Origin: Branchiostoma floridae
Taxonomy: Eukaryota > Chordata > Leptocardii > Amphioxiformes > Branchiostomatidae
DNA: 64,000 nt
NCBI RefSeq assembly: GCF_000003815.2
Contig: NC_049991.1
Span: 8,758,998-8,822,997 of the forward strand
Direction of reading: 5' to 3'
In this document: piece after piece, positions 18,101 to 41,010 of the stretch
Layout of the letters: every line of letters starts with the position of its first letter
Position numbering within the stretch: the first letter of the stretch is position 1
Position numbers and translations under genes: made by a program
The notes under the pieces: model-generated
Databases searched by the model: none
The model's input: the letters and a program-made list of their open reading frames with translations, nothing else
Told to the model about the DNA's origin: nothing

Positions 18101-20249
18101 AAATATATGCAAGGCTACTATTAGTACTAAGTTAAACTCAGTTACTTTACTGACAGATGTATCTGTATAACTGATATAACTGCCCTTTGGTGTAACACAC
18201 CAGCTTCACAGGCAGTGTGGCAGCAGCTTTTGCATATATATTACACATGGCGACCTTTCACACCTAACCTTTGCACATCTAGCCTTAGTCGTTGTTTAAA
18301 GTGATGTGGTACCTATTGTACATGGCACAAGTTCCGCACAATAGGGTTTTGAGTAAGGTACATTTAATTAGAACAGAAAATAATCATTTTTTCGCCCTCA
18401 GCACTTCTTCACCATACAGGACACCATAGTTCTGTATGACATGTTGGGGGCACATAGAAAACACCTTGTGGATATCCAATGTGCCCTCCTGCATCAATAG
18501 AAGGGCACAATTTCACCCCACATACATGTACAGTCTCTCTACATGTGAGAGCTTTATGTTTCTGACTTATAATAATTAGAGAGAAGATATAATATTTCAT
18601 AATTGGGAGTTATAGAGAGAACTCCTAGAACATTTCTTGTCTACTCAAAGACGATGTTCAGAATACTAGTAGTTGTGACATTTGCCTTTTAGATATCATA
18701 TTGTGTCTTTTTCATAACCCGTAACCTACATGTAGCTATAGAGTAGTGTTCTGGCCTTGTTGCATATGGCATGTATATGTGGAGACCTTGACATTCATGA
18801 GTAATTCAGCTCAGACTGTAAATTGTTTTTTTTGTTCATCCAGACTTATATTTGCAGTAGGCAGTAGTATTTTGATTGAAGTTTGCAGTGGAAACGATTT
18901 TGTTGTTAGATAGCCCACATATTCTAGGTGTCATGATTTTTTCAGTGAAGAGATCACTGATAAAAATGTGGGAGTAAAATCAGGATTTAAAGAAAACAGA
19001 CAACAACAAAACTGTTTATTAACTTTCAAATTCAAGACTTACAGTGTAGTTTATGCCTTTTCATACCAAGCAGACTGAACACCATAGCATAAATGGTGAC
19101 TTAACGATAGCCTTTATACCATCCGGAAAGTAGTTCGCTCAGGTGTTGATTATAAGCTATATACAGTCGCTTGTTGCATTTATTATACACTATATACTAG
19201 TCGCTTCTCTGCTGCTACGCCTGGGAACCTTGACCACGTTAATGTCTGGAAGAGGGTAATGATTGGTCTCTACACATAAGTTAATTAAGGAATGGGTTGA
19301 AGCGATCATTGGAACACCCGAAAAGCTGTCTGTTGCCAGGTAGCTAGGCTAACTTTATGACAGATGTTGATGGAATGTTGTAGTGCTGTTATATGAAGCA
19401 ATATCCTCCATATCTGGGCTTGTTTCAGAGCGCCACTTCCAGCGGCTGAACAGACTCCTGCAGCAGGCCATGTTTGTGGAGTACACGTGGCAGCAGATGA
19501 GGACAGCCACAGAGCAGGGGTTAGTACAACCACTATCACTCACAGTTACGTACGGAATTGTGGATGTTATTTAATGCCACTGCAACACACAGTGATTTTT
19601 ATGTTATATTGCTTATATGGCATGTATGTTGCAAAACATTAACAGAATTGTTCAAAGTATGACATATTTTGATAACTCCAACTATGACTCTTATCTTGAT
19701 TATATTCTTTTCCACAGATCTACAGAACCAGAGGAATCTGTAAGCCGGCATGACACTGAAGATGCAAGCATGGAAGACTCCAGCAATGGAGATGTGTCTT
19801 TAACCTCAGACTCTACTGGACAGGAGCTCAACAAGTCATCCGAACAAATCCAACAGACAAGACCATCCCCAGAACTGAGACCAAAAAAACAAGTAGAAGA
19901 AGTCACAATCTCCGATTCCTCGTCCGAGAAAAGCTTCTCTGATTCGTCAGACGCGCCAGTCATGATTGTAGACGTACAATTGAAGCCAGCAACTGAAAAT
20001 GTAACCACACAAAGTGGCAGTCCTAAAGATATCGGACAATCGGTGGGAAAGAAGAACTCCAGCCAAGAGGACAGCTCAGATGAAGATTGGGATGCTGTTC
20101 TGGCAGCCATGAGGAAATCGGACGCCAACAAAACAAAGGGACCTGCGAAGGGGAAAACCCCTGCCAAACAGGGACAGAAAAACAAAATGTGTCCAGTCAA
20201 AACTTCTGAATATTCAAATAACAAGAGGAGAAAGTCCAGTTCTAGATAG
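6176..20249 (+). CDS. TBL3: TBL3 / UTP13, WD40 protein of the SSU processome (25 exons)
   Basis: Orthologue of transducin beta-like 3 (yeast Utp13), a nucleolar UTP-B subunit needed for U3-dependent 18S rRNA processing. Exons: 6176-6201, 6502-6553, 7180-7275, 7685-7729, 8137-8284, 8753-8837, 9054-9146, 9533-9686, 10088-10187, 10821-11032, 11516-11657, 12031-12089, 12242-12348, 12729-12870, 13238-13309, 13508-13597, 14079-14147, 14710-14780, 15487-15643, 16682-16740, 17252-17355, 17524-17595, 17805-17963, 19429-19519, 19718-20249. All introns are GT-AG, and the sum is 2937 nt (978 aa). Recognisable blocks: AKIEPFYTGGRVQ at the N terminus, WD repeats to about residue 640 (for example LLATGSQDRTIKLW, LLSSGSDGLIKLWTIKNNE), and a Utp13 helical domain at about 660-800 (WNTNSRNCHQAQAVL, LVPYTERHFQRL). 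Residues 803-978 form a Ser/acidic then Lys-rich tail absent from the roughly 800-aa vertebrate proteins. Identity is near certain; individual splice sites are predictions. Confidence 0.95.
15676..15876 (+). mobile_element. 5'-truncated LINE tail in TBL3 intron 19
   Basis: The plus strand reads TGKTPRGCPRGRWEDQIF, then LKELGVSKTSW, a stop, and DRSTWRKLSKPA. This is the familiar C-terminal end of a non-LTR retrotransposon reverse-transcriptase ORF (GRPRxRWEDQI...LKxLG...W motif). It ends in a short tgat/attg microsatellite at about 15857-15874, as expected for a 3' tail. An in-frame stop shows it is dead. It lies wholly within intron 19 of TBL3. Confidence 0.75.
16438..16537. other. Assembly gap (100 N)
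   Basis: Exactly 100 N bases in TBL3 intron 19; the length is probably a placeholder. No TBL3 exon seems to be missing, because exons 19 and 20 join in frame and the protein aligns continuously there. Confidence 0.99.
19109..19232. repeat. Degenerate copy of the gggtaccatcc MITE family
   Basis: ataccatccggaaagtagttcgctc near the left end and cgcttctctgctgctacgcctggga at the right match the elements at 29196-29360 and 48353-48516. It is diverged or partial and lies in TBL3 intron 23. Confidence 0.45.
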
Positions 20250-20638
20250 ACATAGAAAATATCTGTCTGGTGACTCAGTACCTGGTCTGTTTGGTTCAAA
20301 ATTGTGTACCTTTTTTTTTCATTGCTTCGTAGAGACCTTGTGTGGGATAAGGACATTACTAATCCAATGTATAAGTCTGTATCATTAGAAACATTGTTAA
20401 TATGCATAACTTTATTTTCTGAGGATTTCGTGTTAAAGTTGGACATATAAGGAAAATGACGAGTATTTTGATAGATGCAGCATAGTTTAATACATAATGA
20501 CTTTTGTTACAGTGCCAAATACCTTATAGCCCATGAAAACTACATTTAATAAATGTAACATTTTTGACTAAAATTTGAAAGATGATACTGATACATAGTA
20601 CATTGATATATACATGAGTTAGAGGTATATCAAAACAC

Positions 20639-20644
20639 AATAAA
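20639..20644 (+). terminator. Candidate polyadenylation signal of TBL3
   Basis: AATAAA in the context acacaataaagctag, 390 bp after the TBL3 stop codon. The same motif is kept in the duplicated 3'UTR copies near 24632, 33290 and 37268. Confidence 0.55.
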
Positions 20645-20893
20645 GCTAGACATTCTATGATCCTTTTTGCACTCCTTTTGAAATAGTAAATTATAAATAT
20701 ATTAATAATAGTATTACAGCTTTTACCGGTATGTACAACTTATGAAGGTCAGTACCAGACCAGATACCAAATATTATCAAATAATCAAAGCAATCCATCC
20801 AAATATTACTAGCTTCGTGCTGTTAAACCACCTAGTCACAAATAGCATATAAGCTACAAATACATGCTACTAAAACCATAACAGTCCTGAACA

Positions 20894-21308
20894 TTAGGGG
20901 TGGGTACCAGTATGTTGTACCAGTACAAAACCTTTTTCTTATTGGACCGGTCCGGAAAAAACAGACCTGAAAAAAATCGGTGGACCAGATGTTGGACCTA
21001 TTGGACAATGAACAGATTATATGATCGGGCATTCAGACATTTGGGGGCTTACCGGTCGAAGAAAATAACAGCGAAGTAGAGTGGAGTCTTTAGTCATTTG
21101 TACAAAGATTTACAGTCAATCGTGCAGGGATAGTTAGCCTTGTAGGATTTCAAAACGCCATTGGGAGTCCAATACGCCACAAACCAGTTTTTGTGGCGAA
21201 ATGGACCATTGTTTTGAGTATTGTCCATTCATAAGTTTTCACATACTGAATCAGGTCCAGACCTGGACCTCTGGACCCGAATTTTCTGTACTGGTACCCG
21301 TCGCTACT
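20894..21308. mobile_element. hAT-like MITE (taggggtgggta family), copy 1
   Basis: It starts ttaggggtgggtaccagta and ends ctggtacccgtcgct, imperfect inverted termini. The interior carries the family hallmarks accggtccgg, ggacctgaaaaaa and a run of ggacct motifs near the 3' end. The termini resemble those of hAT elements; this class call is inferred. It lies between the TBL3 3'UTR and LRR gene 1. The corresponding copy is at 33554-33947. Confidence 0.6.
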
Positions 21309-21321
21309 ATACATCAATAGG

Positions 21322-22419
21322 TTACACCTGATGAAGACTTATGTCATCAGCACCAACCCTATCTCCTTCATAAGGGCTGTCTGACCTGAACTTCCTGATT
21401 ATCAATGATATCAAGACAACGATTGATACCGATATCATTACTGCAATGTGGCGGACTCTGACCTGCGGTTCTGTGTTGTCCATTAGGTGGGTTGCAGTAG
21501 ACCTTGTGGTGTTACAATACCCTGTAAAAACTTTGGTTGCAGTAGATGAAGGGGATCGTCGGGGTTTACTTCGAGGCAAAGTCGTACTTCCATAGTATGC
21601 CTCTTCTAGTTTCCCAAGAACTTCAGCAGTAGCGCCTTTCCTTTGAGTCTGTCTTGGCTGAAGCTCGGACACCTTAGAAGTTGTGGAGACCAGTTTCTCA
21701 TCTCTGCACCCTGTGAGATACTGCGAGACGTTCCACAAGGGTAGACCTTTCAGGTGATTTGGTCTGGCGCAAACCATGCCATCGGTTTCAAAGGCACCGA
21801 ATATACAGGTGTCACACTGCACACAGGCTCTCAGAGGGCTCTTCTCTGTGTTCATGGTTTCATGCCAGCATTTGAGTCTGGTGATTAGCCACAACATTGC
21901 GCAGTCACAGCGAAACGGGTTGTTCGCAAACTTGGCAAAACCCAACTTGGGGAAACCGAGCTGGTGGTAGGAGAAGGAGGAAAGCCTGTTATCTGCCACG
22001 CCCACAAATCTCAGATGTGGGAGGTCCTTGATGACCGCACCCACGTTCACGTGCACAAGTCTGTTGTAATCCAACTTGAGGTACTGCAAAGCCGGCAAGT
22101 TTCGAAGTAAAAGCCACTCAACCGTTTCCATACGGTTCCATCGAATGTTCAGTGAAGTAAGGTTCTTTAGCACCGGGATTTCGCGAAGATTCTTGATGCG
22201 GTTGAAGGAAATGTCCAGCGTGATTGTATCTGACGGTAGCCCCTCAGGTATCGCAGTGTACCTGTTGTGAAGGTCCTTGTGGATACAAAAGATGTTTAGT
22301 TGTGAAGTTGGCGTCCCGTCTGGTGTGGTCGGAATGACACAGCCCAGTGGCAAGGCGCGGTCTTCCGTTGAAACAAGCCCAAAGTATGAGACGATAGTAA
22401 TAAGTGCGAAGCATTTCAT
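21322..22419 (-). CDS. Single-exon LRR type-I membrane protein, copy 1
   Basis: Predicted cell-surface leucine-rich-repeat protein of 365 aa. Visible in order: signal peptide (MKCFALITIVSYFGLVSTED); a short region with Cys residues; about five LRRs at residues 60-165 (TLDISFNRI, SLNIRWNRM, YLKLDYNRL, FVGVADNRL, FAKFANNPF); a C-terminal cap (NPFRCDCAMLWL...) with CDC and further cysteines to about 238; a Ser/Thr/Pro-rich stalk; a transmembrane helix near 325-341 (IAVMISVSIVVLISLII); and a 24-residue tail without a TIR or kinase domain. I chose the ATG at 22419 because it is the start shared with copies 2 and 4. An ATG ten codons upstream (22449) is not an ATG in those copies. Ligand and function are unknown; vertebrate relatives with this layout are adhesion or recognition receptors. 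Confidence 0.85.
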   Translation of the reverse strand: MKCFALITIVSYFGLVSTEDRALPLGCVIPTTPDGTPTSQLNIFCIHKDLHNRYTAIPEGLPSDTITLDISFNRIKNLREIPVLKNLTSLNIRWNRMETVEWLLLRNLPALQYLKLDYNRLVHVNVGAVIKDLPHLRFVGVADNRLSSFSYHQLGFPKLGFAKFANNPFRCDCAMLWLITRLKCWHETMNTEKSPLRACVQCDTCIFGAFETDGMVCARPNHLKGLPLWNVSQYLTGCRDEKLVSTTSKVSELQPRQTQRKGATAEVLGKLEEAYYGSTTLPRSKPRRSPSSTATKVFTGYCNTTRSTATHLMDNTEPQVRVRHIAVMISVSIVVLISLIIRKFRSDSPYEGDRVGADDISLHQV

Positions 22420-22449
22420 TGTCAGAATTGTGGTACCGACACACTCCAT

Positions 22450-23838
22450 GTTACCACACTAGTATTTCTGTATACGTAATAACATGGAGGTTGGTAATAA
22501 CTGACCTGTTGGTTCTTTAGTCCTTGAAGTAAGTTTACCTTTTACACAATGCTTGGCACGGACATGTGGAGTACGATGTACATGTAAGTGGATAGCAGTC
22601 TTGAATCTAACTTGTCTACCTGCTGCACAGAATGTGACAGACACTCAGCTCGGGGCAGGCAGACGTATGGGGTCATTAGCCTTGGAATATTCAACAATGT
22701 TTTTTTTTAGTACTAGTATATTTCAACACATGGTGTGATGCTCCATTCATACATGTATACAGAACACATATGCAATACCAAGGACGTTGTATCAAGGAGG
22801 TTATATACTGAGCGTTGTAAAGGTAAAGAAAATAAGGGCCATCTATCTGCTTGGATGTATCAGAAGAAGACATAAGAAGAACACACCAACAAAAACACCA
22901 TCCTATCCTATAGGGGAAACATTTATTGAAAGACGCTACCTAGGAGACCAGACACTGCACGCCTAATTACATTACGTGTTGCACGAGCCTCCCCGCCTTA
23001 CTCATTCGACTGGACCTTCTCCAAAACCAAACAATAAAATAACTCACTAATATATCGACTTAGAAACTGTAGAACTGGTTGAAAGTACTACAATTTCGTT
23101 GTTGTGGTTACAGTATACTAGTAACAAACAGGTCGTTGAACTATCATTGTCATTATGCATATTCATGAGGTGTCCACACAAAGAAGTCATTAACATATTA
23201 CTCGACAATCCTTGACAGGTGCAAACAGGTGAGAGAAAGATAATGATACAATTTCAAGTTCACAAATAGCGCAATTTAAAACCAATTTGAACTGCAAGAA
23301 AGGTGCGAGGACGACAAAAATCGACCATGTCGTGTGTATACAACAGTAGTAAACAATTTGTCGATCTTTCTGTTGGTGACGTCAGGAGCGGAATTTCGGT
23401 CTTGTAATTTTGCCACGGCGAGAAATCGTTTTCTTTCAAAAGCGATGCAAGCGGTGACCAACTATCGGTACTCTGGTTTCCCTTCAGTACCTACGTACAA
23501 ATCTTTCGCCTTTTACTAAAGATTTCCGTGGAGGGGTGCAATCAATGAGTCTATAACTCAATTTTTCCCTGCCCTGTCCCGACCAGGGCTCCTAATAAAC
23601 CAAAGAAGTTCGCATACACTGATTGTCAGCACTGTGCATTCTAGCGACGTCAGCATGGCGTATTTCATAATCCTACTTTGCACCGCTACAGTGTAAAGAA
23701 AGAGGTCCCAAGTGATTTATTGGCAAAATCGTTAGGGAATACCGTGAATATACTTAACTTTAACTATTCAAAAGTATTGAAAAGCATTCTTGAAAACAAA
23801 AGTGCAAAAGTATTCTCGAAAACAAAACTGCAAAAGTA
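22450..23838. other. Spacer of tandem duplication unit A, upstream of LRR gene 1
   Basis: No gene is recognised. This is the presumed promoter and 5'UTR side of LRR gene 1. The sequence recurs nearly unchanged at 26000-27235, 35060-36310 and 38615-39899, and partly at 40307-40870. A cctcatgaatatgc-like motif and a gtgacgtca motif (about 23377) recur in the copies and could be regulatory; this is only an inference. Confidence 0.6.
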
Positions 23839-23960
23839 TATTATTGTCAACAAAACTACAAAGGGAAAAAAAAACCGCCAAACGGACAGAAAAACAAAAT
23901 GTGTGCGGTCAAAACCCCAGAATATTCAAATAACAAGGGGAGAAGGTCCAGTTCTAGAAA
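23839..23960 (+). pseudogene. TBL3 last-exon remnant, unit B
   Basis: This is homologous to the end of TBL3 exon 25. It keeps the gacagaaaaacaaaatgtg and atattcaaataacaagg blocks and the tctgtctggtgactca start of the 3'UTR. The original stop codon is altered (tctagaaatgcg), and the upstream part of the exon is gone. Homology to the TBL3 3'UTR continues to about 24760. It is a by-product of segmental duplication, not a gene. Confidence 0.8.
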
Positions 23961-24289
23961 TGCGTAAAAATATCTGTCTGGTGACTCATGATCAGGTCTG
24001 TTTGGTTTAAATTTTTTATATATTTACTATCTTTTTTTTTCGCTGATTTGTAGAGACCTTGTGTGGGATAAGGACATTACTAATCCAATGTATAGGTCTA
24101 TATCACAACAGTTATTAAAAACATTGTTAATATGCTGATCCATTGATAACTTTGTCTGAGAATGTCTTCTTAAGTTGGACATATGCGGTAAGGAAAATTA
24201 CGAGAATTATGATACCCGGTAGATGCAGCATAATTTAATGTATAATGACTCTTGTTACAGTGCCAAATACGTTATAGCCCATGAAAACT

Positions 24290-24504
24290 AGCAGCATCTA
24301 TTGTTATGATTAGTATTATTGTTTACATTCAGTTTCATTACCATTGTTATTTAATCATTTCATTTATTGCTGTCTATTTATGTTTGCCTATGTTTGTGAT
24401 GAATATGTTTAATTTCTTTTTATGTAACACGCAGGGCTCCACTGAAAAGCAGTGCAAGAGCACTGAGCTTGGACCACTCTGGATAAAGATTACAGAAATA
24501 AAAT
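24290..24504 (+). mobile_element. LINE 3'-end insertion in unit B
   Basis: Relative to unit A (gaaaactacattt), about 215 bp are inserted here, with aaaact duplicated at both edges (target-site duplication). The insert ends ggctccactgaaaagcagtg...gataaagattacagaaataaa, a typical LINE 3'UTR ending. The same insertion is present in unit D at 36925-37138 and absent from A and C. Confidence 0.65.
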
Positions 24505-24869
24505 AAAACTACATTTGATAAATGTAACATTTTTGTCACACTTTGGACTAGAATCTAAAATATGATGCTGATACAAACTATTGCTATTAGTACATATTGA
24601 TATATACATGTGTTAGGTAATATCAAGACACAATAAAGCTAGTCATTCTACGGTCCTTTTTACACAGCTTTTTTATGTATTTTTGAAATATAGCTTTTAT
24701 GTACAGGCTATGTAAGTCAACACCAAACCACATATGTAATATCAATCATTGCAATCCATCCAAATATCATTAGCTCTGTGCTAATCAATCTAGTCACAAA
24801 TAGATAGCATCTACAATGTAAGCTTCAAACACATGCTAATAAATCATAACTTTCATATACATCTATAGG

Positions 24870-25970
24870 TTACATCTGATGAAGACTAATGTCATCAGCA
24901 CCAACTCTATCATCTCCTTCGTAAGGGCTGCCAGACCTGAACTTCCTGATTATCAATGATATCAAGACAACGATTGATACCGATATCATTACTGCAATGT
25001 GGCGGACTCTGACCTGCGGTTCTTTGTTGTCCATTTGGCAGGTTGCAGTAGACCTTGTGGTGTTACAATACCCTGTAAAAACTTTGGTTGCAGTAGATGA
25101 AGGGGATCGTCGGGGTTTACTTCGAGGCAAAGTCGTACTTCCATAGTACGCCACTTCGAGTTTCCCAAGAACTTTAGCAGTAGCTTCTTTCCTTTGAGTC
25201 TGTCTTGGCTGAAGCTCGGACATCTTAGAAGTTGTGGAGACCAGTTTCTCATCTCTGCAAGCTGTGAGATACTGCGAGACGTTCCACAAGGGTAGACCTT
25301 TCAGGTGATTTGGTCTGGCGCAAACCATGCCATCGGTTTCAACGGCACCGAATATACAGGTGTCACACTGCACACAGGTTGTCAGAGGGCTCTTCTCTGT
25401 GTTCATGGTTTCGTGCCAGCATTTTAGTCTGGTGATTAGCCACAACATTGCGCAGTCACAGCGAAACGGGTTGTTCGCAAACTTGGCAATACTCAACATG
25501 GGGAAACCGAGCTCTTTATAGGAGAAGGAGGGAAGTTTATTGTTTGCCACGCCCACAAACCTCAGATGTGGGAGGTCCTTAATGACCGCACCCACGTTCA
25601 CGTGCACAAGTCTGTTGTAATCCAACTTGAGGTACTGCAAAGCCGGCAAGTTTCGAAGTAAAAGCCACTCAACCGTTTCCATACGGTTCCATCGCACGTT
25701 CAGTGAAGTAAGGTTCCTTAGCACCGGGATTTCGCGAAGATTCTTGATGCGGTTGAAGGAAATGTCCAGCGTGATTGTATCTGACGGTAGCCCCTCAGGT
25801 ATCGCAGCGTACTTGTTGTGAATGTCATTGTGGATACAAAAGATGTTTAGTTGTGAAGTTGGCGTTCCGTCTGGTGTGGTCGGAATGACACAGCCCTGTG
25901 GCAAGGTGCGGTCTTCCGTCGAAACAAGCCCAAAATATGAGATGATAATAATAAGTGTGAAGCATATCAT
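24870..25970 (-). CDS. Single-exon LRR type-I membrane protein, copy 2
   Basis: 366-aa paralogue of the LRR gene at 21322-22419 with the same layout: signal peptide (MICFTLIIIISYFGLVSTED), five LRRs, CDC-type C-terminal cap, stalk, one transmembrane helix and a short tail ending HQM. The open frame extends upstream to 25991 only through a TTG, so the ATG at 25970 is taken as the start. Distinguishing residues are PQGC after the signal peptide, HNDIHNKYAA, TSKMSEL and KLEVAYYG. No inactivating change is visible. Function is unknown, as for copy 1. Confidence 0.85.
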   Translation of the reverse strand: MICFTLIIIISYFGLVSTEDRTLPQGCVIPTTPDGTPTSQLNIFCIHNDIHNKYAAIPEGLPSDTITLDISFNRIKNLREIPVLRNLTSLNVRWNRMETVEWLLLRNLPALQYLKLDYNRLVHVNVGAVIKDLPHLRFVGVANNKLPSFSYKELGFPMLSIAKFANNPFRCDCAMLWLITRLKCWHETMNTEKSPLTTCVQCDTCIFGAVETDGMVCARPNHLKGLPLWNVSQYLTACRDEKLVSTTSKMSELQPRQTQRKEATAKVLGKLEVAYYGSTTLPRSKPRRSPSSTATKVFTGYCNTTRSTATCQMDNKEPQVRVRHIAVMISVSIVVLISLIIRKFRSGSPYEGDDRVGADDISLHQM

Positions 25971-27235
25971 TGTTGTCCCGACACTCTCCAAGTATTACCA
26001 TACTTAGTATTTATGTATACGTAATAACAAGTGGGTTGGTAATAACTGACCTGTGGGCTCTTCAGTCATCGAAACGTTTCCTTTTTTGATAATACTTGGC
26101 GTATGGAGTACGATGTAAGTGGATAGCAGTCTTGAATCTAACTTGTCTACCTGCTGCACAGAATGTAACAGACACTCAGCTCGGGGCAGGCAAACGTATG
26201 GGGTCATTAGCCTTGGAATATTCAACAATGTTTTTTTTTTACTAGTATATTTCAACACATGGCGTGATTCTCCATTCATACATGTATCCAGAACACACAT
26301 GCAATACCAATGACGTTGTATCAAGGAGGTTATATACTGAGCGTTGTAAAAGCAAAAGTAAAAAATAAGGGCCACCTATCTGCTTGGATGTACCAGAAGA
26401 AGACCACACCAACAAAAACACCATCCTATCCTATAGGGGAAACATTTATTGAAAGACGCTACCTAGGAGACCAGACACTGCACGCCTAATTACATTACGT
26501 GTTGCACGAGCCTCCCCGCCTTACTCATTCGACTGGACCTTCTCCAAAACCAAACAATAAAATAACTCAATAATATATCGACTTAGAAACTGTAGAACTG
26601 GTTGAAAGTACTACAATTTCGTTGTTGTGGTTACAGTATACTAGTAACAAACAGGTCGTTGAACTATCATTGTCATTATACATATTCATGAGGTTTCCAC
26701 ACAATGAGGTCATTAACATATTACTCGACAATCCTTGACAGGTGCAAACAGGTGAGAGAAAGATAATGATACAATTTCAAGTTCACAAATATCGCAATTT
26801 AAAACCAATTTGAACTGCAAGAAAGGTGCGTGGACGACAAAAATCGACCATGTCGTGTGTATACAACAGTAGTAAACAATTTGTCGATCCTTTTGTTGGT
26901 GACGTCATGAGCGGAATTTCGGTCTTGTAATTTTGCCACGGCGAGAAATCGTTTACTTTCAAAGGCGGTGCAAGCGGTGACCAACTATCGGTACTCTGGT
27001 TTCCCTTCAGTACCTACGTACAAATCTTTCGCCTTTTACTAAAGATTTCCGTGGAGGGGAACAATCAATTAGTCTATAACTCAATTTTTCCCTGCCCTGT
27101 CCCGACCAGGGCTCCTGATAAACCAAAGAAGTTCGTATACACTGTTTCTCAGCACTGTGCATTCCAGAGATGTTAGTATTACGTATTTCTTACACACAGC
27201 AACAGTGCCGATATGTTACCTTCCTCATGACAGTT

Positions 27236-27651
27236 GCTAAGGGGTGGGTATACGGTTTACCGGTACAAAACCGCGTTTTTTTGGACCGGTTCGGAAAAAC
27301 CGGACCTGAAAAAATTCGGTGGAACCGATGTTGGACCAATTGGAAAAGGAAAATATGATCAGGCATTCGCACGTTTTGGGGCTTACCGGTCGAAGAAAAA
27401 AGCAAGAGCGAAGTCTATGGTCATTTCTACAAAATTTTTCAGTAAATCGTCAAGAGCCAGTTAGCCTTGCAAGACTTCAAAACGCCAATGGGAGTCAAAT
27501 ACGCCACAAAATAGATTTGTTTGTAGCGAAATGGACCATTGTTTTGAGTATCGTCCTTTCACAACTTTTCACAGTTGGACCTGGGCCTGATCCTCTGGAC
27601 CTGAACCGGACCTGCGGACCTTAATTTTCTGTACTGGTACCCACCCTTAGC
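27236..27651. mobile_element. hAT-like MITE (taggggtgggta family), copy 2
   Basis: The termini gctaaggggtgggta and gtacccacccttagc are inverted repeats with a one-base length difference. Internal blocks (accggttcgg, ggacctgaaaaaa, serial ggacct) match the copies at 20894, 33554 and 39900. It marks the end of unit B; the equivalent element closes unit D. Confidence 0.65.
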
Positions 27652-28770: not shown

Positions 28771-28774
<4 letters not shown>

Positions 28775-31050: not shown

Positions 31051-31639
31051 TTTGTACTTACTAAAATTTAATATTTAGCATCCATCTCTATGCCTAGTGT
31101 TCTCATGTACAATCGTTGGTTGGGCGTAATTTAACCGTTACTGTTTTTGTTTGTCGACGTCAGTTTAACATTTATCGATCTTTAGATTAGTAAAGTCAAC
31201 ATTACCACTGAATTGATTCGTTTATAAGAATGCATCGATATCCTTTTACTTTGGGGAAATTGGTGAAATAGCTTTGCTTTGTTTATGTATCGTTAGAAAC
31301 CCCAGAGAATTTGATTGGTTGTTTTGCACAAAGGCTCTGGTGCACGTCCCCTATTTTTTGCCTTCTTTATTGTGGAAAGGTTTTTTAGGGGTTGCGTGGC
31401 TGGCAAACAACAGTTTTCTCAAAATTCACTGGAACGCTGAGAACATATTTGAAAATATTTTCATTTTTGTTTCAAAGGAACCTGGAAATAAAACGAAACT
31501 GAATACGTCATGATCAATTCTACTTGGCGTGTTTAGTTTTGTTTTACTTAAAGGTTGTGCTTGTGCTTACTGTAAACATGCCATCATATGATACAATCAT
31601 TTTCATTTGTGGACTTTTTGTTTCGACTATTGTAAAATG

Positions 31640-32115
31640 TTAAGGACGTTTCTATTTCGGTTTAATTTCTCTTCACGTTTCGGCACTTCTTAAATCACTT
31701 ATGTATATTAGATACGTTTTCTGTTTCGGACAAGTTATCATCAGTTGGAATTTCTATTACATTTGGCTTTGATTACAAAAGAATGTGCGATTACTAATCT
31801 TTCTGTTTCGGTCTAGTTTTTGCCCATTATTTATGTGAGTTTTGACACTTCTCACTTTAAAAGTTACTGTAATATTTTACAGTTTTGGGTTTGTTTATGA
31901 AAAGTATCGTTCGATTACTGACGTTTCTCTTTCGGTCCAGTTTTGGCCCCACATCTCTGTACGTTTCGACACTTTTGTCATTTTAAAAAATTGCATCTTT
32001 GTCAGTTATATTTGACCGTTATTTTGGATTTCATCCGAAAAGGTTTGTGCGATTACTGACGTTTTTGTTTCGGTCCAGTTTTGGCCTCTCATTTCTGTTC
32101 TTTTCGACACTTCAG
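31640..32115. repeat. Degenerate tandem repeat, about 130-bp period
   Basis: gcgattactgacgttt..tttcggtc recurs at about 31787, 31912 and 32049 (spacing 125 and 137 bp), with an older partial unit upstream. Each is followed by agttttggcc and gtttcgacactt. The same array is at about 54740-55220. There is no coding signal. Confidence 0.6.
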
Positions 32116-32577
32116 GATTAAAGTTGGCCACACGCGGTGTCCAAGCACTCGCGCCCATCCTACAAACGAGTGTGTGTATTCATTCAGTGTGGTGTACATG
32201 TATGTGTGGACTGCTGTGAGAGTCTGATGTACAGGTGTGATGCAGAAACTAGTGTAATGTGATTTCTTCTTGTGGAACGACATAGATGGGTCTACACATG
32301 CGTTTTCGGAGTCGACTCAGCAGAGTTAACATTTTGGGCATGTAATTTAGGTAACTGATGCGTCAATTGTAGGTGAGACCGTGACGGCGGAAGGCCATGA
32401 TAGGTTCTGGACTACTGTATCAAAAACTTGAAGACCACACATTTAAATCCATCTTGAGTCGGCGCGGTACAGGGAGTCAGAATCGCAGCTGAGGCAATGG
32501 GCGCGTGGCCCCGTACCTAAACCCAACACTCCCGAGTGTCGATTCCAGTCCGGAGTCGACTACAAAATGCGTGTGTA

Positions 32578-32919
32578 ATCTCCGATTCCTCATCCGAGAA
32601 AAGCTTCTCTGATTCGTCAGACGCGCCAGTCATGATTGTAGACGTACAATTGAAGCCAGCAACTGGAAATGTAACCACACAAAGTGGCAGTCCTAAAGAT
32701 ATTGGACAATCGGTGGGGAAGAAGAACTCCAGCCAAGAGGACAGCTCGGATGAAGACTGGGATGCTGTTCTGGCAGCCATGAGGAAATCGGACGCCAACA
32801 AAACAAAGGGACCTGCGAAGGGGAAAACCCCTGCCAAACAGGGACAGAAAAAAAAAATGTGTCCGGTCAAAACCCCAGAATATTCAAATAACAAGAGGAG
32901 AAAGTCCAGTTCTAGATAG
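32578..32919 (+). pseudogene. TBL3 C-terminal tail duplicate, unit C
   Basis: A near-identical copy of the last 113 codons of TBL3 (ISDSSSEKSFSDSSDAP ... NKRRKSSSR, stop). A few substitutions are present, such as E to G before NVTTQSGS and N to K near the QKKKMCP motif. The frame is intact, but no ATG, promoter or splice acceptor precedes it. It starts abruptly after gcgtgtgta, the 3' edge of the repeat block. Homology continues into the 3'UTR. A fusion transcript cannot be excluded, but it looks like a duplication relic. Confidence 0.8.
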
Positions 32920-33553
32920 GCGTAAAAATATCTGTCTGGTGACTCAGGACCTGGTCTGTTTGATTCAAAATTGTGTATCTTTTTTTTTTCATTGCTTTGT
33001 AGAGACCTTGTGTGGGATAAGAACATTCAATTAACTAATCCAATGTATAAGTCTGTATCATTAGAAACATTGTTAATATGCTGATCCATGCATAACTTTA
33101 TTTTCTGAGGATGACGTGTTAAAGTTGGACATATAAGGAAAATGACGAGTATTTTGATAGATGCAGCATAGTTTAATACATAATGATTTTTGTTACAGTG
33201 CCAAATACCTTATAGCCCATGAAAGCTACATTTGATCAATGTAACATAGTACATTGATATATACATGAGTTAGAGGTATATCAAAACACAATAAAGCTAG
33301 ACATTCTATGGTCCTTTTTGCACTGCTTTTGAAATAGTAAATAACAAATATATTGATAATAGTATTACAGCTTTTACCGGTATTTACAACTTATGTTGGT
33401 CAATACCAGACCAGATACCAAATATTATCAATTAATCATAGCAAACCATCGAAATATTATTAGCTTGGTGCTGTTTAATTACAAATACAAATGTAGCATG
33501 TAAGATACAAACACATACTACTAACTCAAATAAAACCATAACTTTCCTGTACA

Positions 33554-33947
33554 TTAGGGGTGGGTATCAGTAAGGTGTACCAGTACAAAACCGTTTTTCT
33601 TACTGGACCGGTCCAAAAAAAACGGACCTGAAAAAAATCGGTGGACCGGATGTTGGACCTTTTGGAAAATGAACAGAATATATGATCGGGCATTCACACA
33701 ATTGGGGGCTTACCGGTCAAAGAAAATAACTGATAAGTAGAGTGGAGTCTATAGTCATTGTGTTACAGTCAATCGTACAGAGGTAGTTAGCCTTGTAGGA
33801 TTTGGGTGTCTAATACGCCACAAACCAGTTTTTGTAGCGAAATGGACCATTTTTTTTAGTATCGTCCATTCATGAGTTTTCACATACTGAATCAGGTTCG
33901 GACCTGGACCTCTGGACCCGAATTTTCTGTACTGGTACCCGTCGCTA
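33554..33947. mobile_element. hAT-like MITE (taggggtgggta family), copy 3
   Basis: Same ends and interior as 20894-21308, at the same position relative to its LRR gene. It was therefore duplicated along with unit A rather than inserted independently. Confidence 0.6.
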
Positions 33948-33962
33948 CTATACATCTATGGG

Positions 33963-35058
33963 TTACACCTGATGAAGACTTATGTCATCAGCTCCAACTC
34001 TATCATCTCCTTCATAAGGGCTGCCAGACCTGAACTTCCTGATTATCAATGATATCAAGACAACGATTGATACCGATATCATTACTGCAATGTGGCGGAC
34101 TCTGACCTGCGGTTCTTTGTTGTCCATTTGGCAGGTTGCAGTAGATCTTCTGGTGTTACAATACCCTGTAAAAACTTTGGTTGCAGTAGACGAAGGGGAT
34201 CGTTGGGGTTTACTTCGAGGCAAAGTCTTACTTCTATAGTACGCCTCTTCTAGTTTCCCAAGAACTTTAGCAGTAGCCCCTGTCCTTTGAGTCTGTCTTG
34301 GCTGAAGCTCGGACACCTTAGAAGTTGTGGAGACCAGTTTCTCATCTCTGCAAGCTGTGAGATACTGCGAGACATTCCACAAGGGTAGTCCTTCCAGGTG
34401 GTTTGGTCTGGCGCAAACCATGCCATCGGTTTCAACGGCACCGAATATACAGGTGTCACACTGCACACAGGCTCTCAGAGGGCTCTTCTTTGTGTTCATG
34501 GTTTCGTGCCAGCATTTGAGTCTGGTGATTAGCCACAACATTGCGCAGTCACAGCGAAACGGGTTGTTCGCAAACTTGGCAATACTCAACATGGGGAAAC
34601 CGAGCTCTTTATAGGAGAAGGAGGGAAGTTTGTTGTTTGACACACCCACAAACCTCAGATCTGGGAGGTCCTTAATGACCGCACCCACATTCACATGCAC
34701 AAGTCTGTTGTAATCCAACTTAAGGTACTGCAAAGCCGGCAAGTTTCGAAGTAAAAGCCACTCAACCGTTTTCATGCGGTTCCATCGCATGTTCAGTGAA
34801 GTAAGGTTCTTTAGCACCGGGATTTCGCGAAGATTCTTGATGCGGTTGAAGGAAATGTCCAGCGTGATTGTATCTGACGGTAGCCCCTCAGGTATCGCAG
34901 TGTACTTGTTGTGAATGTCATTGTGGATACAAAAGATGTTTAGTTGTGAAGTTGGCGTCCCGTCTGGTGTGGTCGGAATGACACAGCCCTGTGGCAAGGT
35001 GCGGTCTTCCGTTGAAACAAGCCCAATATATGAGACGATAGTAATAAGAGCGTTTCAT
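33963..35058 (-). pseudogene. LRR type-I membrane protein, copy 3 (frameshifted in the signal peptide)
   Basis: From about 34997 to the stop at 33963 the frame matches the other LRR copies (LRRs, CDC cap, stalk, transmembrane helix, HQV end). Close to the conserved ATG (35058) five bases are missing compared with copies 1 and 4 (atgaaacgctctt in place of atgaaatgcttcgcactt). The signal peptide is thus out of frame with the LRR domain. The in-frame segment begins at a TTG, and no ATG precedes the LRRs in that frame. It is probably a pseudogene, unless an upstream exon restores the frame. Confidence 0.75.
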
Positions 35059-36480
35059 TGTCAGGATTGTGGTACCGACACACTCCAAGTATGTTACCAC
35101 ACTAGTATTTCTGTATACGTAATAACAAGGAGGTTGGTAATAACTGACCTGTTGGTTCTTTAGTCCTTGAAATAAGTTTACCTTTTACACAATGCTTGGC
35201 ACGGACATGTGGAGTACGATGTACATGTAAGTGGATAGCAGTCTTGAATCTAACTTGTCTACCTGCTGCACAGAATGTAACAGACACTCAGCTCGGGGCA
35301 GGCAGACGTATGGGGTCATTAGCCTTGGAATATTCAACAATGTTTTTTTAGCACTAGTATATTTCACCACATGGTGTGATTCTCCATTCATACATGTATC
35401 CAGAACACACATGCAATACCAATGACGTTGTATCAAGGAGGTTATATACTGAGCGTTGTAAAAGCAAAAGTAAAAAATAAGGGCCACCTATCTGCTTGGA
35501 TGTACCAGAAGAAGACCACACCAACAAAAACACCATCCTATCCTATAGGGGAAACATTTATTGAAAGACGCTACCTAGGAGACCAGACACTGCACGCCTA
35601 ATTACATTACGTGTTGCACGAGCCTCCCCGCCTTACTCATTCGACTGGACCTTCTCCAAAACCAAACAATAAAATAACTCACTAATATATCGACTTAGAA
35701 ACTGTAGAACTGGTTGAAAGTACTACAATTTCGTTGTTGTGGTTACAGTATACTAGTAACAAACAGGTAGTTGAACTATGATTGTCATTATGCATATTCA
35801 TGAGGTGTCCACACAAAGAAGTCATTAACATATTACTCGACAATCCTTGACAGGTGCAAACAGGTGAGAGAAAGATAATGATACAATTTCAAGTTCACAA
35901 ATAGCGCAATTTAAAACCAACTTGAACTGCAAGAAAGGTGCGAGGACGACAAAAATCGACCATGTCGTGTGTATATAACAGTAGTAAACAATTTGTCGAT
36001 CTTTCTGTTGGTGACGTCATGAGCGGAATTTCGGTCTTGTAATTTTGCCACGGCGAGAAATCGTTTTCTTTCAAAAGCGATGCAAGCGGTGACCAACTAT
36101 CGGTACTCTGGTTTCCCTTCAGTACCTACGTACAAATCTTTCGCCTTTTACTAAAGATTTCCGTGGAGGGGAACAATCAATGAGTCTATAACTCAATTTT
36201 TCCCTGCCCTGTCCCGACCAGGGCTCCTAATAAACCAAAGAAGTTTGCATACACTGATTGTCAGCACTGTGCATTCTAGCGACGTCAGCATGGCCTATTT
36301 CATAATCCTACTTTGCACCGCTACAGTGTAAAGAAAGAGGTCCCAAGTGATTTATTGGCAAAATCGTTAGGGAATACCGTGAATATACTTAACTTTAACT
36401 ATTCAAAAGTATTGAAAAGCATTCTTGAAAACAAAAGTGCAAAAGTATTCTCGAAAACAAAACTGCAAAAGTATATTATT
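35059..36480. other. Spacer of tandem duplication unit C
   Basis: A near copy of the spacer at 22450-23838. It is upstream of LRR copy 3 and ends in the tttgcaccgctacagtgtaa motif shared by all unit junctions. No gene is recognised. Confidence 0.6.
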
Positions 36481-36600
36481 GTCAACAAAACTACAAAGGG
36501 GAAAAAAACCGCCAAACGGACAGAAAAACAAAATGTGTGCGGTCAAAACCCCAGAATATTCAAATAACAAGGGAAGAAGGTCCAGTTCTAGAAATGCGTA
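36481..36600 (+). pseudogene. TBL3 last-exon remnant, unit D
   Basis: The same truncated and mutated remnant as at 23839-23960 (tctagaaatgcg in place of the stop), followed by TBL3-like 3'UTR sequence to about 37400. It confirms that unit D derives from unit B. Confidence 0.8.
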
Positions 36601-36924
36601 AAAATATCTGTCTGGTGACTCATGATCAGGTCTGTTTGGTTTAAATTTTGTATACATTTACTATCTTTTTTTTCACTGATTTGTAGAGACCCTGTGTGGG
36701 ATAAGGACATTACTAATCCAATGTATAGGTCTATATCACAACAGTTATTAAAAACATTGTTAATATGCTGATCCATTGATAACTTTATTGTCTGAGAATG
36801 TCTTCTTAAGTTGGACATATACGGTAAGGAAATGACGAGAATTATGATACCCGGTAGATGCAGCATAATTTAATGTATAATGACTTTTGTTACAGTGCCA
36901 AATACGTTATAGCCCATGAAAACT

Positions 36925-37138
36925 AGCAGCATCTATTGTTATGATTAGTATTATTGTTTACATCAGTTTCATTACCATTGTTATTTAATCATTTCATTTA
37001 TTGCTGTCTATTTATGTTTGCCTATGTTTGTGATGAATATGTTTAATTTCTTTTTATGTAACACGCAGGGCTCCACTGAAAAGCAGTGCAAGAGCACTGA
37101 GCTTGGACCACCCTGGATAAAGATTACAGAAATAAAAT
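36925..37138 (+). mobile_element. LINE 3'-end insertion in unit D
   Basis: The orthologous copy of the insertion at 24290-24504, with the same edges and the same aaaact duplication. Confidence 0.65.
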
Positions 37139-37505
37139 AAAACTACATTTGATAAATGTAACATTTTTGTCACACTTTGGACTAGAATCTAAAATATGAT
37201 GCTGATACAAACTATTGCTATTATAGTACATATTGATATATACATGTGTTAGGTAATATCAAGACACAATAAAGCTAGACATTCTACGGTCCTTTTTACA
37301 CAGCTTTTTTATGTATTTTTGAAATATAGCTTTTATGTACAGGCTATGTAAGTCAACACCAAACCACATATGTAATATCAATCATTGCAATCCATCCAAA
37401 TATCATTAGCTCTGTGCTAATCAATCTAGTCACAAATACATAGCATCTACAATGTAAGCTTCAAACACATGCTACTAAATCATAACTTTCATATACATCT
37501 ATAGG

Positions 37506-38612
37506 TTACATCTGATGAAGACTAATGTCATCAGCACCAACTCTATCATCTCCTTCGTAAGGGCTGCCAGACCTGAACTTCCTGATTATCAATGATATCA
37601 AGACAACGATTGATACCGATATCATTACTGCAATGTGACGGACTCTGACCTGCGGTTCTTTGTTGTCTATTTGGTGGGTTGCAGTAGACCTTGTGGTGTT
37701 ACAATACCCTGTAAAAACTTTGGTTGCAGTAGATGAAGGGGATCGTTGGGGTTTACTTCGAGGCAAAGTCGTACTTCCATAGTACGCCACTTCGAGTTTC
37801 CCAAGAACTTTAGCAGTAGCTTCTTTCCTTTGAGTCTGTCTTGGCTGAAGCTCGGACATCTTAGAAGTTGTGGAGACCAGTTTCTCATCTCTGCAAGCTC
37901 TGAGATACTGCGAGACGTTCCACAAGGGTAGACCTTTCAGGTGATTTGGTCTGGCGCAAACCATGCCATCGGTTTCAACGGCACCGAATATACAGGTGTC
38001 ACACTGCACACAGGTTGTCAGAGGGCTCTTCTTTGTGTTCATGGTTTCATGCCAGCATTTGAGTCTGGTGATTAGCCACAACATTGCGCAGTCACAGCGA
38101 AACGGGTTGTTCGCAAACTTGGCAATACTCAACATGGGGAAACCGAGCTCTTTATAGGAGAAGGAGGGAAGTTTATTGTTTGCCACGCCCACAAACCTCA
38201 GATGTGGGAGGTCCTTGATGACCGCACCCACATTCACGTGCACAAGTCTGTTGTAATCCAACTTAAGGTACAGCAAAGCCGGCAAGTTTCGAAGTAAAAG
38301 CCACTCAACCGTTTCCATACGGTTCCATCGCACGTTCAGTGAAGTAAGGTTCTTTAGCACCGGGATTTCGCGAAGATTCTTGATGCAGTTGAAGGAAATG
38401 TCCAGCGTGATCGTATCTGACGGTAGCCCCTCAGGTATCGCAGTGTACCTGTTGTGAAGGTCCTTGTGGATACAAATGATGTATACCTGTGAGGTTGACG
38501 TGGTGGCCTCGTCTGGTATGTTTGAAACAAAACAGCCCAGTGGCAAGGCGCGGTCTTCCGTTGAAACAAGTCCCAAATATGAGACGATAGTAATAAGTGC
38601 GAAGTATTTCAT
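37506..38612 (-). CDS. Single-exon LRR type-I membrane protein, copy 4
   Basis: 368-aa paralogue with signal peptide (MKYFALITIVSYLGLVSTED), five LRRs, CDC-type cap, stalk, transmembrane helix and a tail ending HQM. The frame extends upstream to 38654 only through a GTG, so the conserved ATG at 38612 is used. The segment right after the signal peptide (GCFVSNIPDEATTSTSQVYI) differs sharply from the other copies and is two residues longer. The LRR domain is nearly identical to theirs. The N-terminal side resembles copy 1 (PLGC, HKDLHNRYT) and the C-terminal side resembles copy 2 (TSKMSEL, KLEVAYYG, HQM). Function is unknown. Confidence 0.85.
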   Translation of the reverse strand: MKYFALITIVSYLGLVSTEDRALPLGCFVSNIPDEATTSTSQVYIICIHKDLHNRYTAIPEGLPSDTITLDISFNCIKNLREIPVLKNLTSLNVRWNRMETVEWLLLRNLPALLYLKLDYNRLVHVNVGAVIKDLPHLRFVGVANNKLPSFSYKELGFPMLSIAKFANNPFRCDCAMLWLITRLKCWHETMNTKKSPLTTCVQCDTCIFGAVETDGMVCARPNHLKGLPLWNVSQYLRACRDEKLVSTTSKMSELQPRQTQRKEATAKVLGKLEVAYYGSTTLPRSKPQRSPSSTATKVFTGYCNTTRSTATHQIDNKEPQVRVRHIAVMISVSIVVLISLIIRKFRSGSPYEGDDRVGADDISLHQM

Positions 38613-39899
38613 TGTCAGGATTGTGGTACCGACACACTCCAAGTATGTTACCACACTAGTATTTCTGTATACGTAATAACAAGGAGGTTGGTAATAACTG
38701 ACCTGTTGGTTCTTTAGTCCTCGAAATAAGTTTACCTTTTACACAATGCTTGGCACGGACATATGGAGTACGCTGTAAGTGGATAGCAGTCTTGAATCTA
38801 ACATGTCTACCTGCTGCACAGAATGTGACAGACACTCAGCTCGGGGCAGGCAGACGTATGGGGTCATTAGCCTTGGAATATTCAACAATGTTTTTTTTAG
38901 TACTAGTATATTTCACCACATGGCGTGATTCTCCATTCATACATGTATCCAGAACACACATGCAATACCAATGACGTTGTATCAAGGAGGTTATATACTG
39001 AGCGTTGTAAAAGCAAAAGTAAAAAATAAGGGCCACCTATCTGCTTGGATGTACCAGAAGAAGACCACACCAACAAAAACACCATCCTATCCTATAGGGG
39101 AAACATTTATTGAAAGACGCTACCTAGGAGACCAGACACTGCACGCCTAATTACATTACGTGTTGCACGAGCCTCCCCGCCTTACTCATTCGACTGGACC
39201 TTCTCCAAAACCAAACAATAAAATAACTCACTAATATATCGACTTAGAAACTGTAGAACTGGTTGAAAGTACTACAATTTCGTTGTTGTTGTTATAGTAT
39301 ACTAGTAACAAACAGGTAGTTGAACTATGATTGTCATTATGCATATTCATGAGGTTTCCACACAATGAGGTCATTAACATATTACTCGACAATCGTTGAC
39401 AGGTGCAAACAGGTGAGAGAAAAATAATGATACAATTTCAAGTTCACAAATACCGCAATTTAAAACCAATTTGAACTACAAGAAAGGTGCGTGGACGACA
39501 AAAATCGACCATGTCGTGTGTCATACAACAGTAGTAAACAATTTGTCGATCCTTTTGTTGGTGACGTCATGAGCGGAATTTCGGTCTTGTTAAATTTTGC
39601 CACGGCGAGAAATCGTTTTCTTTCAAAAGCGGTGCAAGCGGTGACCAACTATTGGTACTCTGGTTTCCCTTCAGTACCCACGTACAAATCTTTCGCCTTT
39701 TACTAAAGATTTCCGTGGAGGGGAACAATCAATGAGTCTATAACTCAATTTTTCCCTGCCCTGTCCCGACCAGGGCTCCTAATAAACCAAAGAAGTTCGC
39801 ATACACTGATTCTCAGCACTGTGCATTCCAGCGATGTTAGTATTACGTATTTCTTACACACAGCAACAGTGCCGATATGTTACCTTCCTCATGACAGTT

Positions 39900-40306
39900 G
39901 CTAAGGGGTTGGTACCGGTACGGTGTACCAGTACAAAACCGTTTTTTTCTTATTGGACCGTTCCGGAAAAAACGGACCTGAAATGATTCGGTGGAACCGG
40001 ATGGTGGACCTATTGGAAAATGAACAAATTATTTGACCAGGCATTCGCATGTTTGGGGGCTTAGTTATTTTTACTAAGTTCTACAGTCAATTGTACAGAG
40101 CCAGTTTAGCCTTGTAGGATTTCAAAACGCCAGTGGGAGTTGAATACGCCACAAAACAGATTTCTTTGCAGCGAAATGTACCATTGTTTTTAGTATCGTC
40201 CATTCACAAGTTTTACACACTAAATCGGATGCATTTTCAGGTCCGGACCTGGACCTGATCCTCCGGACCTGGTGCTGCATTTTCTATATCGGTACCCTAC
40301 CCTAGT
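39900..40306. mobile_element. hAT-like MITE (taggggtgggta family), copy 4
   Basis: It begins gctaaggggttggtaccgg and ends atatcggtaccctacccta, with the family interior. It occupies the same junction as copy 2 in unit B and is followed directly by a truncated extra spacer. Confidence 0.6.
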
Positions 40307-41010
40307 CATTATGCATATTCATGAGGTGCCCATACAATGAAAAGGTCATTAACATATTTCCCGACAATCCCACACAGGTGCAAAATAGGTGAAAGAAAAA
40401 CAATGATACAATTTCAAGTTTACAAATACCGCAATGTAACGTTAAAACCAGATTGGAATGTAAGAAAGGTGTGTGGGCGAAAAAAAAATTGACCATGTCG
40501 TGTGTATACAACAGTAGTAAACAATTTGTCGATCCTTTTGGTGGTGACGTCATGAGCGGAATTTCGGTCTTGTAATTTTGCCACAGTGAGAAATCGTTTT
40601 CTTTCAAAAGCGATGCAAGCGGTGACCAACTATCGGTACTCTGGTTTCCCTTCAGTACCCACGTACAAATCTTTCGCCTTTTACTAAAGATTTCCGTGGA
40701 GGGGAACAGTCAATGAGTCTATAACTCAATTTTTCCCTGCCCTGTCCCGACCAGGGCTCCTAATAAACCAAAGAAGTTCGCGCATACACTGATTGTCAGC
40801 ACTGTGCATTCCTGACGTTAGCATTACATAACGTTATACCTTACACATGGAGTCCTCGGCGGCGGGAATGTACTGACCAATCCTACTTTGCACCGCTACA
40901 GTGTAAAGAATGAGGTCCCAAGCGCTTTATCAGCAAAATCATACCGTGAATACCGTGAATACACTTACCTATTCAAAAGTATTGAAAAGTATCCTAGAAA
41001 AAGTTTATTT
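40307..41010. repeat. Truncated fifth spacer copy (unit E)
   Basis: From catattcatgaggtg to the gcaccgctacagtgtaaagaa motif this matches the second half of the spacers in units A-D. It lacks any LRR gene or TBL3 tail. The 5' part was probably lost or never duplicated. Confidence 0.65.

Follow-up and report, generated by a model that had tools for sequence, protein, structure and literature searches.

The window, by which we mean the whole 64,000-nucleotide stretch of Branchiostoma floridae DNA that was analysed, carries the TBL3 (UTP13) gene and, between TBL3 and ZNF598, five U5 snRNA genes. WD40 matches were obtained for two and Utp13 (PF08625) matches for three of the nine TBL3 exon ORFs searched, in order and on the plus strand, with the Utp13-domain exons at 17.2 to 19.6 kb; the TBL3 tail in the first repeat unit (A) is the genuine end of the gene. 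Self-alignment showed that the locus contains a real nested duplication, in which head-to-tail units lie within two copies of a larger segment, organised as follows (strand given where assigned).

7141..20249, plus strand: TBL3 gene region, with exon ORFs from about 7141 and the last exon ending at 20249
19907..32578, plus strand: copy 1 (TBL3 tail, units A and B, block X), from self-alignment
32577..55686, plus strand: copy 2 (units C and D, partial unit E, a 6.5-kb stretch, block X'), from self-alignment and three-way junction comparison
20154..23866, plus strand: unit A, right edge approximate
23867..27782, plus strand: unit B, both edges approximate
27803..32578: block X, the end of copy 1
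28284-28763 (approximate): LINE-like insertion private to X
29981-31044: 49-bp satellite in X, about 22 units
32824..36490, plus strand: unit C, right edge approximate
36491..40304, plus strand: unit D, its own tail missing, left edge approximate
40305..41001 (right edge approximate), plus strand: partial unit E, a U5 gene and spacer without LRR gene or TBL3 tail
41002..47454: stretch present in copy 2 only
41021-41067 and 41138-41219: old X-like remnants in that stretch
42670-43578, minus strand: olfactomedin-domain ORF in that stretch
47455..55686: block X', the end of copy 2
49116-54152: the same 49-bp satellite in X', about 103 units

Copy 2 begins at a point corresponding to position 19907 of TBL3 (self-alignment and junction comparison), and 19907-27573 and 32577-40219 are 93.4% identical over 7,755 columns; the three-way junction comparison shows 2 bp of microhomology (AA) where the two copies join. 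An earlier reading of the sequence alone had proposed four units that combine a piece of the TBL3 tail with an LRR ORF and a spacer, and self-alignment bears this out. Its history, in which an A-B pair was duplicated to C-D, is incomplete: head-to-tail copying is seen, but the segment also took in X, and partial unit E had been overlooked. The repeat block noted between the two pairs does sit there, because X is the end of copy 1 in a duplicated A-B-X segment whose second copy of the block is X'; the idea that it inserted there on its own is rejected, X and X' being the ends of the two copies. The block of U5 and LRR genes, copied tandemly beside TBL3 in two nested steps, offers a clear illustration from nature of processes already known. 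The tRNA scan found no tRNA genes.

The repeated cargo consists of an LRR gene on the minus strand and a U5 snRNA gene on the plus strand, the latter carried by every "spacer" and overlooked in the sequence-only reading.

21322..22458, minus strand: LRR ORF of unit A, stop to stop, LRR_8 at 5.6e-13
24870..25994, minus strand: LRR ORF of unit B, stop to stop, LRR_8 at 1.1e-8
33963..35054, minus strand: LRR ORF of unit C, reading frame disrupted beside the start codon
37506..38738, minus strand: LRR ORF of unit D, stop to stop with an ATG inside
23468..23590, plus strand: U5 gene of unit A, RF00020 at 92.0 bits
26991..27113, plus strand: U5 gene of unit B, RF00020 at 91.4 bits
36103..36225, plus strand: U5 gene of unit C, RF00020 at 96.9 bits
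39655..39777, plus strand: U5 gene of unit D, RF00020 at 95.7 bits
40636..40758, plus strand: U5 gene of unit E, RF00020 at 94.2 bits

All four LRR ORFs score above the LRR_8 cut-off, and hydrophobic stretches, candidates for a signal peptide and a membrane span, are visible by eye. The frame is unbroken in three of the five units; a short deletion shifts it beside the start codon in C, and E has lost the gene. The five U5 matches (91.4 to 96.9 bits; gathering score, 40 bits) are full length, each spanning positions 1-117 of the RF00020 covariance model. The strings that we take to define the invariant loop 1 and the Sm site, which agree with the model consensus, lie at the same place in all five copies; only 5 of the 123 RNA positions vary, and the upstream sequence, including the upstream 100 bp, is conserved throughout. 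The genes are probably active.

The units differ in their transposon insertions.

20895..21306: hAT-like MITE1 of A, 6/8 matches in the flanking 8 bp
33555..33947: hAT-like MITE1 of C, 7/8 matches in the flanking 8 bp
24290..24504: LINE 3' end in B, flanked on each side by AAAACT
36925..37138: LINE 3' end in D, same site as in B, AAAACT on both sides
27238..27649: MITE2 in B
39902..40304: MITE in D, left junction as in B, body different, right end abutting E

Several markers had been described correctly: MITE1 lies between the TBL3 tail and the LRR gene in A and C and is absent from B and D, where the empty site is visible, and the LINE 3' end with its duplicated AAAACT is present in B and D and absent from A and C (223 of 224 aligned bases identical, counting the insert and a few flanking bases). 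The TBL3 stop is also mutated in B and D as claimed, the frame closing two codons further on. MITE1 shows inverted ends (by eye) and a near-matching 8-bp target-site duplication, as a hAT-like element should. The terminal MITE does not serve as a time stamp common to B and D: the left flanks agree (the first bin matches at 38 of 39 columns), yet over 362 columns the bodies reach only 81.2% identity, below the values for A-D (85.9%) and C-D (86.0%), and by eye neither element has matching 8-bp flanks. When five MITE copies are placed in a tree, D joins an old copy at 6662, with a support of only 44, and is not the partner of B. The MITE of D ends where native E sequence resumes, and it may have come from the lost part of E by recombination between the MITEs of D and E, which would delete the tail of D and the front of E.

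The insertions do order the flanks as supposed. In the two left-flank segments, S1 (about 0.4 kb) and S2 (about 0.35 kb), all 78 informative sites support AC|BD and none AB|CD or AD|BC, with bootstrap 100 in each segment, as the earlier reading predicted for A with C and B with D. The genes cannot be dated by so simple a tree. They lie in a homogenised block (LRR gene plus U5; 21308..23612 in A, and approximately 24856-27135 in B, 33949-36247 in C and 37492-39799 in D), aligned as S3 (2.36 kb), where 29 informative sites support AC|BD, 7 AB|CD and 10 AD|BC; the alignment extends 57 bp beyond the right edge, and without those sites the counts are 21:7:10. Sites contradicting AC|BD thus number 17 of 46 in S3 and 0 of 78 in S1 and S2 (Fisher p 5e-9), an incongruence confined to the block tract, as expected of gene conversion. 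The grouping of A with B and C with D, which the sequence-only reading had set against its own history, occurs in part of the block, C and D being the closest pair at 22641-22900 (2 differences in 252), but the tree of the whole block joins B with D (bootstrap 100).

Divergence between the A/C and B/D types follows the same boundaries, with 11.7-12.7% in S1, 20.7-22.2% in S2, 4.2-5.2% in the block and 21.8% in the tail past MITE2 (87 columns, compared for A-B and C-B alone because D has no tail). The left edge of the block lies at the MITE1 found only in A and C: the A-B change point is at 20877 and MITE1 starts at 20895, although the support interval does not place this edge finer than about 20850-21329. 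On the right, the change point at 23613 (support 23591-23642) lies some 100 bp before the start of the MITE of B and D.

The two copies do not obey one clock. In S2, A and C differ at 33 of 310 positions and B and D at 3 of 346 (Fisher p 1e-8), counter to the assumption of a single age for both pairs; the same comparison is not significant in S1 (p 0.10) or the whole block (p 0.64). Copy 1 against copy 2 fits two rates, 2.1% and 12.9%, better than one (log likelihood -1259 versus -1355, with the switching rate set by the analyst). Around the satellite, 14 of 18 bins (200 columns each) show 95.9-100% identity between X and X', and the other four (82.4-92.7%) extend to the satellite or to the left end, or sit beside the satellite. 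This identity leans toward a young large duplication, with a baseline near 2% and divergent patches brought in, over an old one at about 11% with homogenised tracts. The low divergence over most of the length, together with differences of an allelic type (satellite length, the private LINE, the 6.5-kb stretch), would also suit an assembly artefact in which the assembler set two haplotypes of one segment in tandem, as copy 1 and copy 2, and the allelic SNP difference of 4.39% in the Chinese lancelet, taken from an excerpt of PMC4284660, exceeds the 2.1% of the low-divergence state. We regard such an artefact as unlikely: the join at 32577/8 is gapless with 2 bp of shared sequence and no overlap, the sole N run in the window (16438-16537) is within TBL3 and outside the repeat, and the divergence of A from B and the mosaic within the block would be left unexplained.

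Selective constraint alone, with free flanks and conserved LRR and U5 genes and promoters, would require no exchange, and the block does contain two genes, one varying at so few positions and conserved over its upstream 100 bp. This is improbable because both the LRR genes and the non-coding block show low divergence: LRR-gene dS is 0.055-0.101 across the six unit pairs, against 12-22% in the flanks, and the non-coding block, with U5 and the 300 bp upstream of it set aside, has differences at 36/705 sites for A-B, 21/714 for A-D, 29/709 for B-C and 10/717 for C-D. Constraint also does not account for the conflict of block sites with the flank tree, nor for unit E, which retains a U5 gene and nevertheless shows 9-10% divergence in the sequence upstream of that gene (28-31 differences in 319 sites against each of units A to D, compared with 12/327 for A-B and 14/327 for C-D). 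In the tail, E is nearer to A (11/86) than B is (19/87); the tail-to-spacer odds ratios are 5.3 for A-B, 1.8 for A-E and 2.2 for B-E (bootstrap fractions at or below zero, 0.002 and 0.005). Unit E, in which the remainder of the block is missing, is less homogenised than units A to D.

A single re-duplication or swap of the LRR-U5 cassette by unequal crossing over would fit the one divergence step on the left, and the D-E junction also suggests unequal exchange, but it has little probability, since the closest pair changes along S3 and several exchanges are therefore needed. Over eight S3 segments the closest pairs are BD, BD, BC, AC, CD, AC, AC and AC, the segment limits having been chosen after the profile was seen and the eighth lying beyond the right edge. 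Patches specific to one unit lie, in A coordinates, at 21939-22009 for A, at about 22241-22400 for D and at about 22400-22640 for B; further copies elsewhere in the genome could have been their donors. Longest-run tests, uncorrected for six pairs, give p values of 0.004 (AB), 0.017 (AD), 0.004 (BC) and 0.0004 (CD) for all sites, and 0.022, 0.056, 0.023 and 0.003, respectively, for S3 alone; the longest A-B run is 8 sites, and the test is weak for that pair.

We consider the following history probable. A unit of TBL3 3' end, LRR gene and U5 gene would have been duplicated tandemly into an A/C and a B/D type, with E as the remnant of a further unit; transposons would then have hit single units, MITE1 the A type and the LINE and MITE2 the B type; and A-B-X would later have been duplicated head-to-tail, with the 2-bp microhomology at the join, into C-D-X'. 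Throughout, the LRR-U5 block, 2.36 kb in length and the longest part in which the two types do not differ in transposons, would have kept exchanging between units by interlocus gene conversion, while the short outer pieces, isolated by transposons, may have ceased exchange and diverged to 12-22%. Conversion is described in excerpts of PMC3924837 as persisting until substitutions or transposable element insertion disrupt pairing, and excerpts of PMC3924818 put the minimal efficient segment in yeast at about 200 bp. Against this history count the almost twofold difference in divergence between S1 and S2, similar in length, the AC|BD topology retained with bootstrap 100 by the whole-block tree, the weak longest-run result for A-B, the conversion at very short homology that PMC3924818 also reports, and the right edge that misses MITE2; the coincidence of edges comprises two events only, because this is one locus. 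The age conflict between A-C and B-D in S2 and the two rates fit the history only through extra exchange or divergent alleles. More tentatively, selection for a uniform, dosed U5 might drive conversion of the block, with the LRR gene as a passenger and the MITEs marking the end of homology, in line with a U5 gene kept in all five units versus an unbroken LRR frame in three. If so, the locus would be a natural experiment in which transposons decide which part of a repeat escapes concerted evolution.

The LRR genes share an LRR ectodomain with two lancelet proteins. One is the VLR-like Bf66946, whose structure (PDB 4xsq) is among the PDB matches at 1.5e-7, a weak match common to many LRR proteins that carries no claim of orthology. 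The other, FrLRR, is described in part of PMC10199209 with LRRNT, LRRs, LRRCT and a predicted C-terminal transmembrane region, but has nine exons and a folate-receptor domain, whereas here the LRR part lies in a single ORF. Tandem snRNA arrays such as human RNU2 and the fish U2-U5 arrays likewise have a head-to-tail unit with a spliceosomal snRNA gene and other sequence: excerpts of PMC3795722 give RNU2 as a near-perfect tandem array of a 6.1-kb unit, whose concerted evolution appears in titles cited there, and the part of PMC3464664 consulted links U2 to U5 in fish. In contrast, the present copies are few and visibly diverged, only part of the unit is homogenised, and the snRNA gene shares its unit with a protein-coding LRR gene and with the 3' end of an adjacent gene. 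Titles and abstract beginnings of the snRNA papers listed, a set outside which fall most subscription papers and the metazoan snRNA survey of Marz and others, describe no U5-LRR tandem unit. A protein-gene reading would find only LRR genes where five U5 genes lie. Shared insertions in such arrays date segments, not genes, since the LRR and U5 histories differ from those of the flanks, and this compact locus allows the traces of duplication, transposon insertion and gene conversion to be compared with one another, E serving as a control. The alpha-globin duplicates are a classic case of interlocus conversion limited by transposon insertions. As in the transposon-limited conversion outlined in excerpts of PMC3924837, the homology block here is similar and the outer parts past the insertions are diverged; unlike those cases, the present locus has four units, insertions on both sides and an internal control in the form of a fifth, truncated unit.

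In this window of animal DNA, between TBL3 at the left (+ strand, recognised by its Utp13-domain and WD40 exons) and ZNF598 at the right (- strand) lie four repeat units, A to D, and a partial fifth unit, E. Each of the four intervals that the sequence-only reading had called spacers, and E as well, contains a complete + strand U5 snRNA gene (n = 5; 91.4 to 96.9 bits; gathering score, 40), and the repeated unit is thus an LRR gene (- strand) plus a U5 gene (+ strand). The U5 copies vary at 5 of 123 positions, and their loop 1 and Sm strings are identical in all five; the genes of A and B each carry one change that disrupts a pair of the model, and a single non-standard pair occurs in the 3' stem of every copy. 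A, B, and D retain an open LRR frame; in C it is shifted near its start, and E has no LRR gene. About 200 bp at 22900-23100, some 370 to 570 bp upstream of U5, is 99.5 to 100% identical among A to D; the copy in A gave no Rfam match at E values up to 1. The main features are as follows.

1-944: zinc-finger repeats, seen in translated sequence; their character may point to a cephalochordate source
16438-16537: gap in the assembly, exactly 100 N, inside TBL3, between the WD40 and Utp13 exons
19907-32578: copy 1 (A, B, and block X at 27803-32578)
32577-55686: copy 2 (C, D, E, a 6.5 kb stretch, and block X' at 47455-55686)
42670-43578, - strand: olfactomedin-domain ORF (PF02191, 6e-26), found within the stretch only in copy 2
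29981-31044 and 49116-54152: 49-bp satellite, ~22 and ~103 units; the larger array matches itself (49098-52131 with 51107-54152, ~3 kb at ~2 kb offset, 92%)

In self-alignment, 19907-27573 matches 32577-40219 at 93.4% identity and X matches X' piecewise; because X pairs with X' as A-B pairs with C-D, the duplicated segment is A-B-X, not A-B alone. Across the copy junction, only AA is common to the three sequences compared, namely the TBL3 exon at 19907 and the ends of X and X'. The nested duplication proposed earlier is real and its order mostly as claimed outside the genes, but inside them that order has probably been partly overwritten by inter-unit exchange. Directly after E, 41021-41067 and 41138-41219 resemble the ends of X in diverged form (83% over 47 columns and 73% over 82 columns, respectively). 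They may represent an X-like copy of earlier date, in which case units may already have dropped out of the array in the past.

Three of the features read as time stamps were confirmed: the hAT-like MITE1 in A and C (its site is empty in B and D) and, in B and D, the LINE end with AAAACT and the loss of the TBL3 stop. The terminal MITE, said to be common to B and D, is not: agreement stops after the first bases, and the whole bodies then differ (81.2% identity, 362 columns). The MITE of D runs up to the point at which native E sequence begins again; a deletion between D and E, from one MITE to the other, is therefore likely. A further, inverted, and more diverged copy of the MITE family lies in the TBL3 region (6662-6970, 67% to the copy in A). 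A LINE-like insertion with a terminal TCA run (~28284-28763) is present in X and absent from X', and so private to copy 1. The long hairpin at 2460-2673, with miRNA-family matches under the gathering score (best, 64.9 bits versus 90), recurs in parts in X and X' and is probably a MITE.

In the left-flank segments S1 and S2, 78 of 78 informative sites group A with C and B with D (AC|BD). Those in S3, the 2.36 kb LRR-U5 block, divide into 29 AC|BD, 7 AB|CD, and 10 AD|BC, with 8 of the 29 falling in the final 57 bp, beyond the right edge of the block. A/C and B/D units diverge by 4.2 to 5.2% in S3, against 11.7 to 12.7% in S1 and 20.7 to 22.2% in S2; the tail beyond MITE2, the terminal MITE of B, gives 21.8% (A and C versus B only, D having no tail). 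The left-hand step in divergence falls at MITE1 and the right-hand one ~100 bp short of MITE2. The closest unit pair varies along the block, the segment limits for this comparison having been chosen after the profile was seen. Counting against a mosaic history, the whole-block tree joins B with D (bootstrap, 100), and single-pair run tests are modest, with uncorrected p values. We favor, with fair confidence, nested duplication plus inter-unit conversion in the LRR-U5 block; the eight AC|BD sites past the block and the post hoc limits restrain that confidence.

A single A-B to C-D event should leave A-C and B-D equally diverged. They differ at 33/310 and 3/346 sites in S2 (p = 1e-8), 16/388 and 8/418 in S1 (p = 0.10), and 84/2345 and 90/2336 in S3 (p = 0.64). 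A two-rate model of copy 1 versus copy 2 (7,608 gap-free columns, 329 differences) gave states of 2.1% and 12.9%, with high-divergence tracts at copy 1 positions 20673-21260, 21473-21515, 21935-22055, 25803-26116, and 27244-27640, and one of 2 bp. The simple history must be supplemented by later exchange or divergent alleles.

Copy 2 is unlikely to be a haplotype assembly error: although the 2.1% state lies below the 4.39% SNP allelic divergence of the Chinese lancelet (PMC4284660), the join between the copies is gapless, and the sole N run in the window, 16438-16537, is inside TBL3. Also unlikely is selective constraint alone, without exchange, as the cause of the block's low divergence, given an LRR gene dS of 0.055 to 0.101 among the four copies (dN/dS, 0.29 to 0.60), 1.4 to 5.1% difference between A/C and B/D units in the non-coding block away from U5, and unit E, which has U5 yet upstream of it differs from A to D at 28 to 31 of 319 sites (A-B, 12/327; C-D, 14/327). 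E is separated from the remainder of the block. Downstream of U5 the order is reversed (A-E, 4/70; A-B, 11/72), and in the tail A-E differs at 11/86 sites and A-B at 19/87, making E by its tail younger than the A/B split. Greater difference in the block despite a younger tail is what homogenisation of A to D without E would be expected to produce. The processes involved are already known; the locus combines U5 with LRR genes, a transposon-bounded block, and a truncated control unit.
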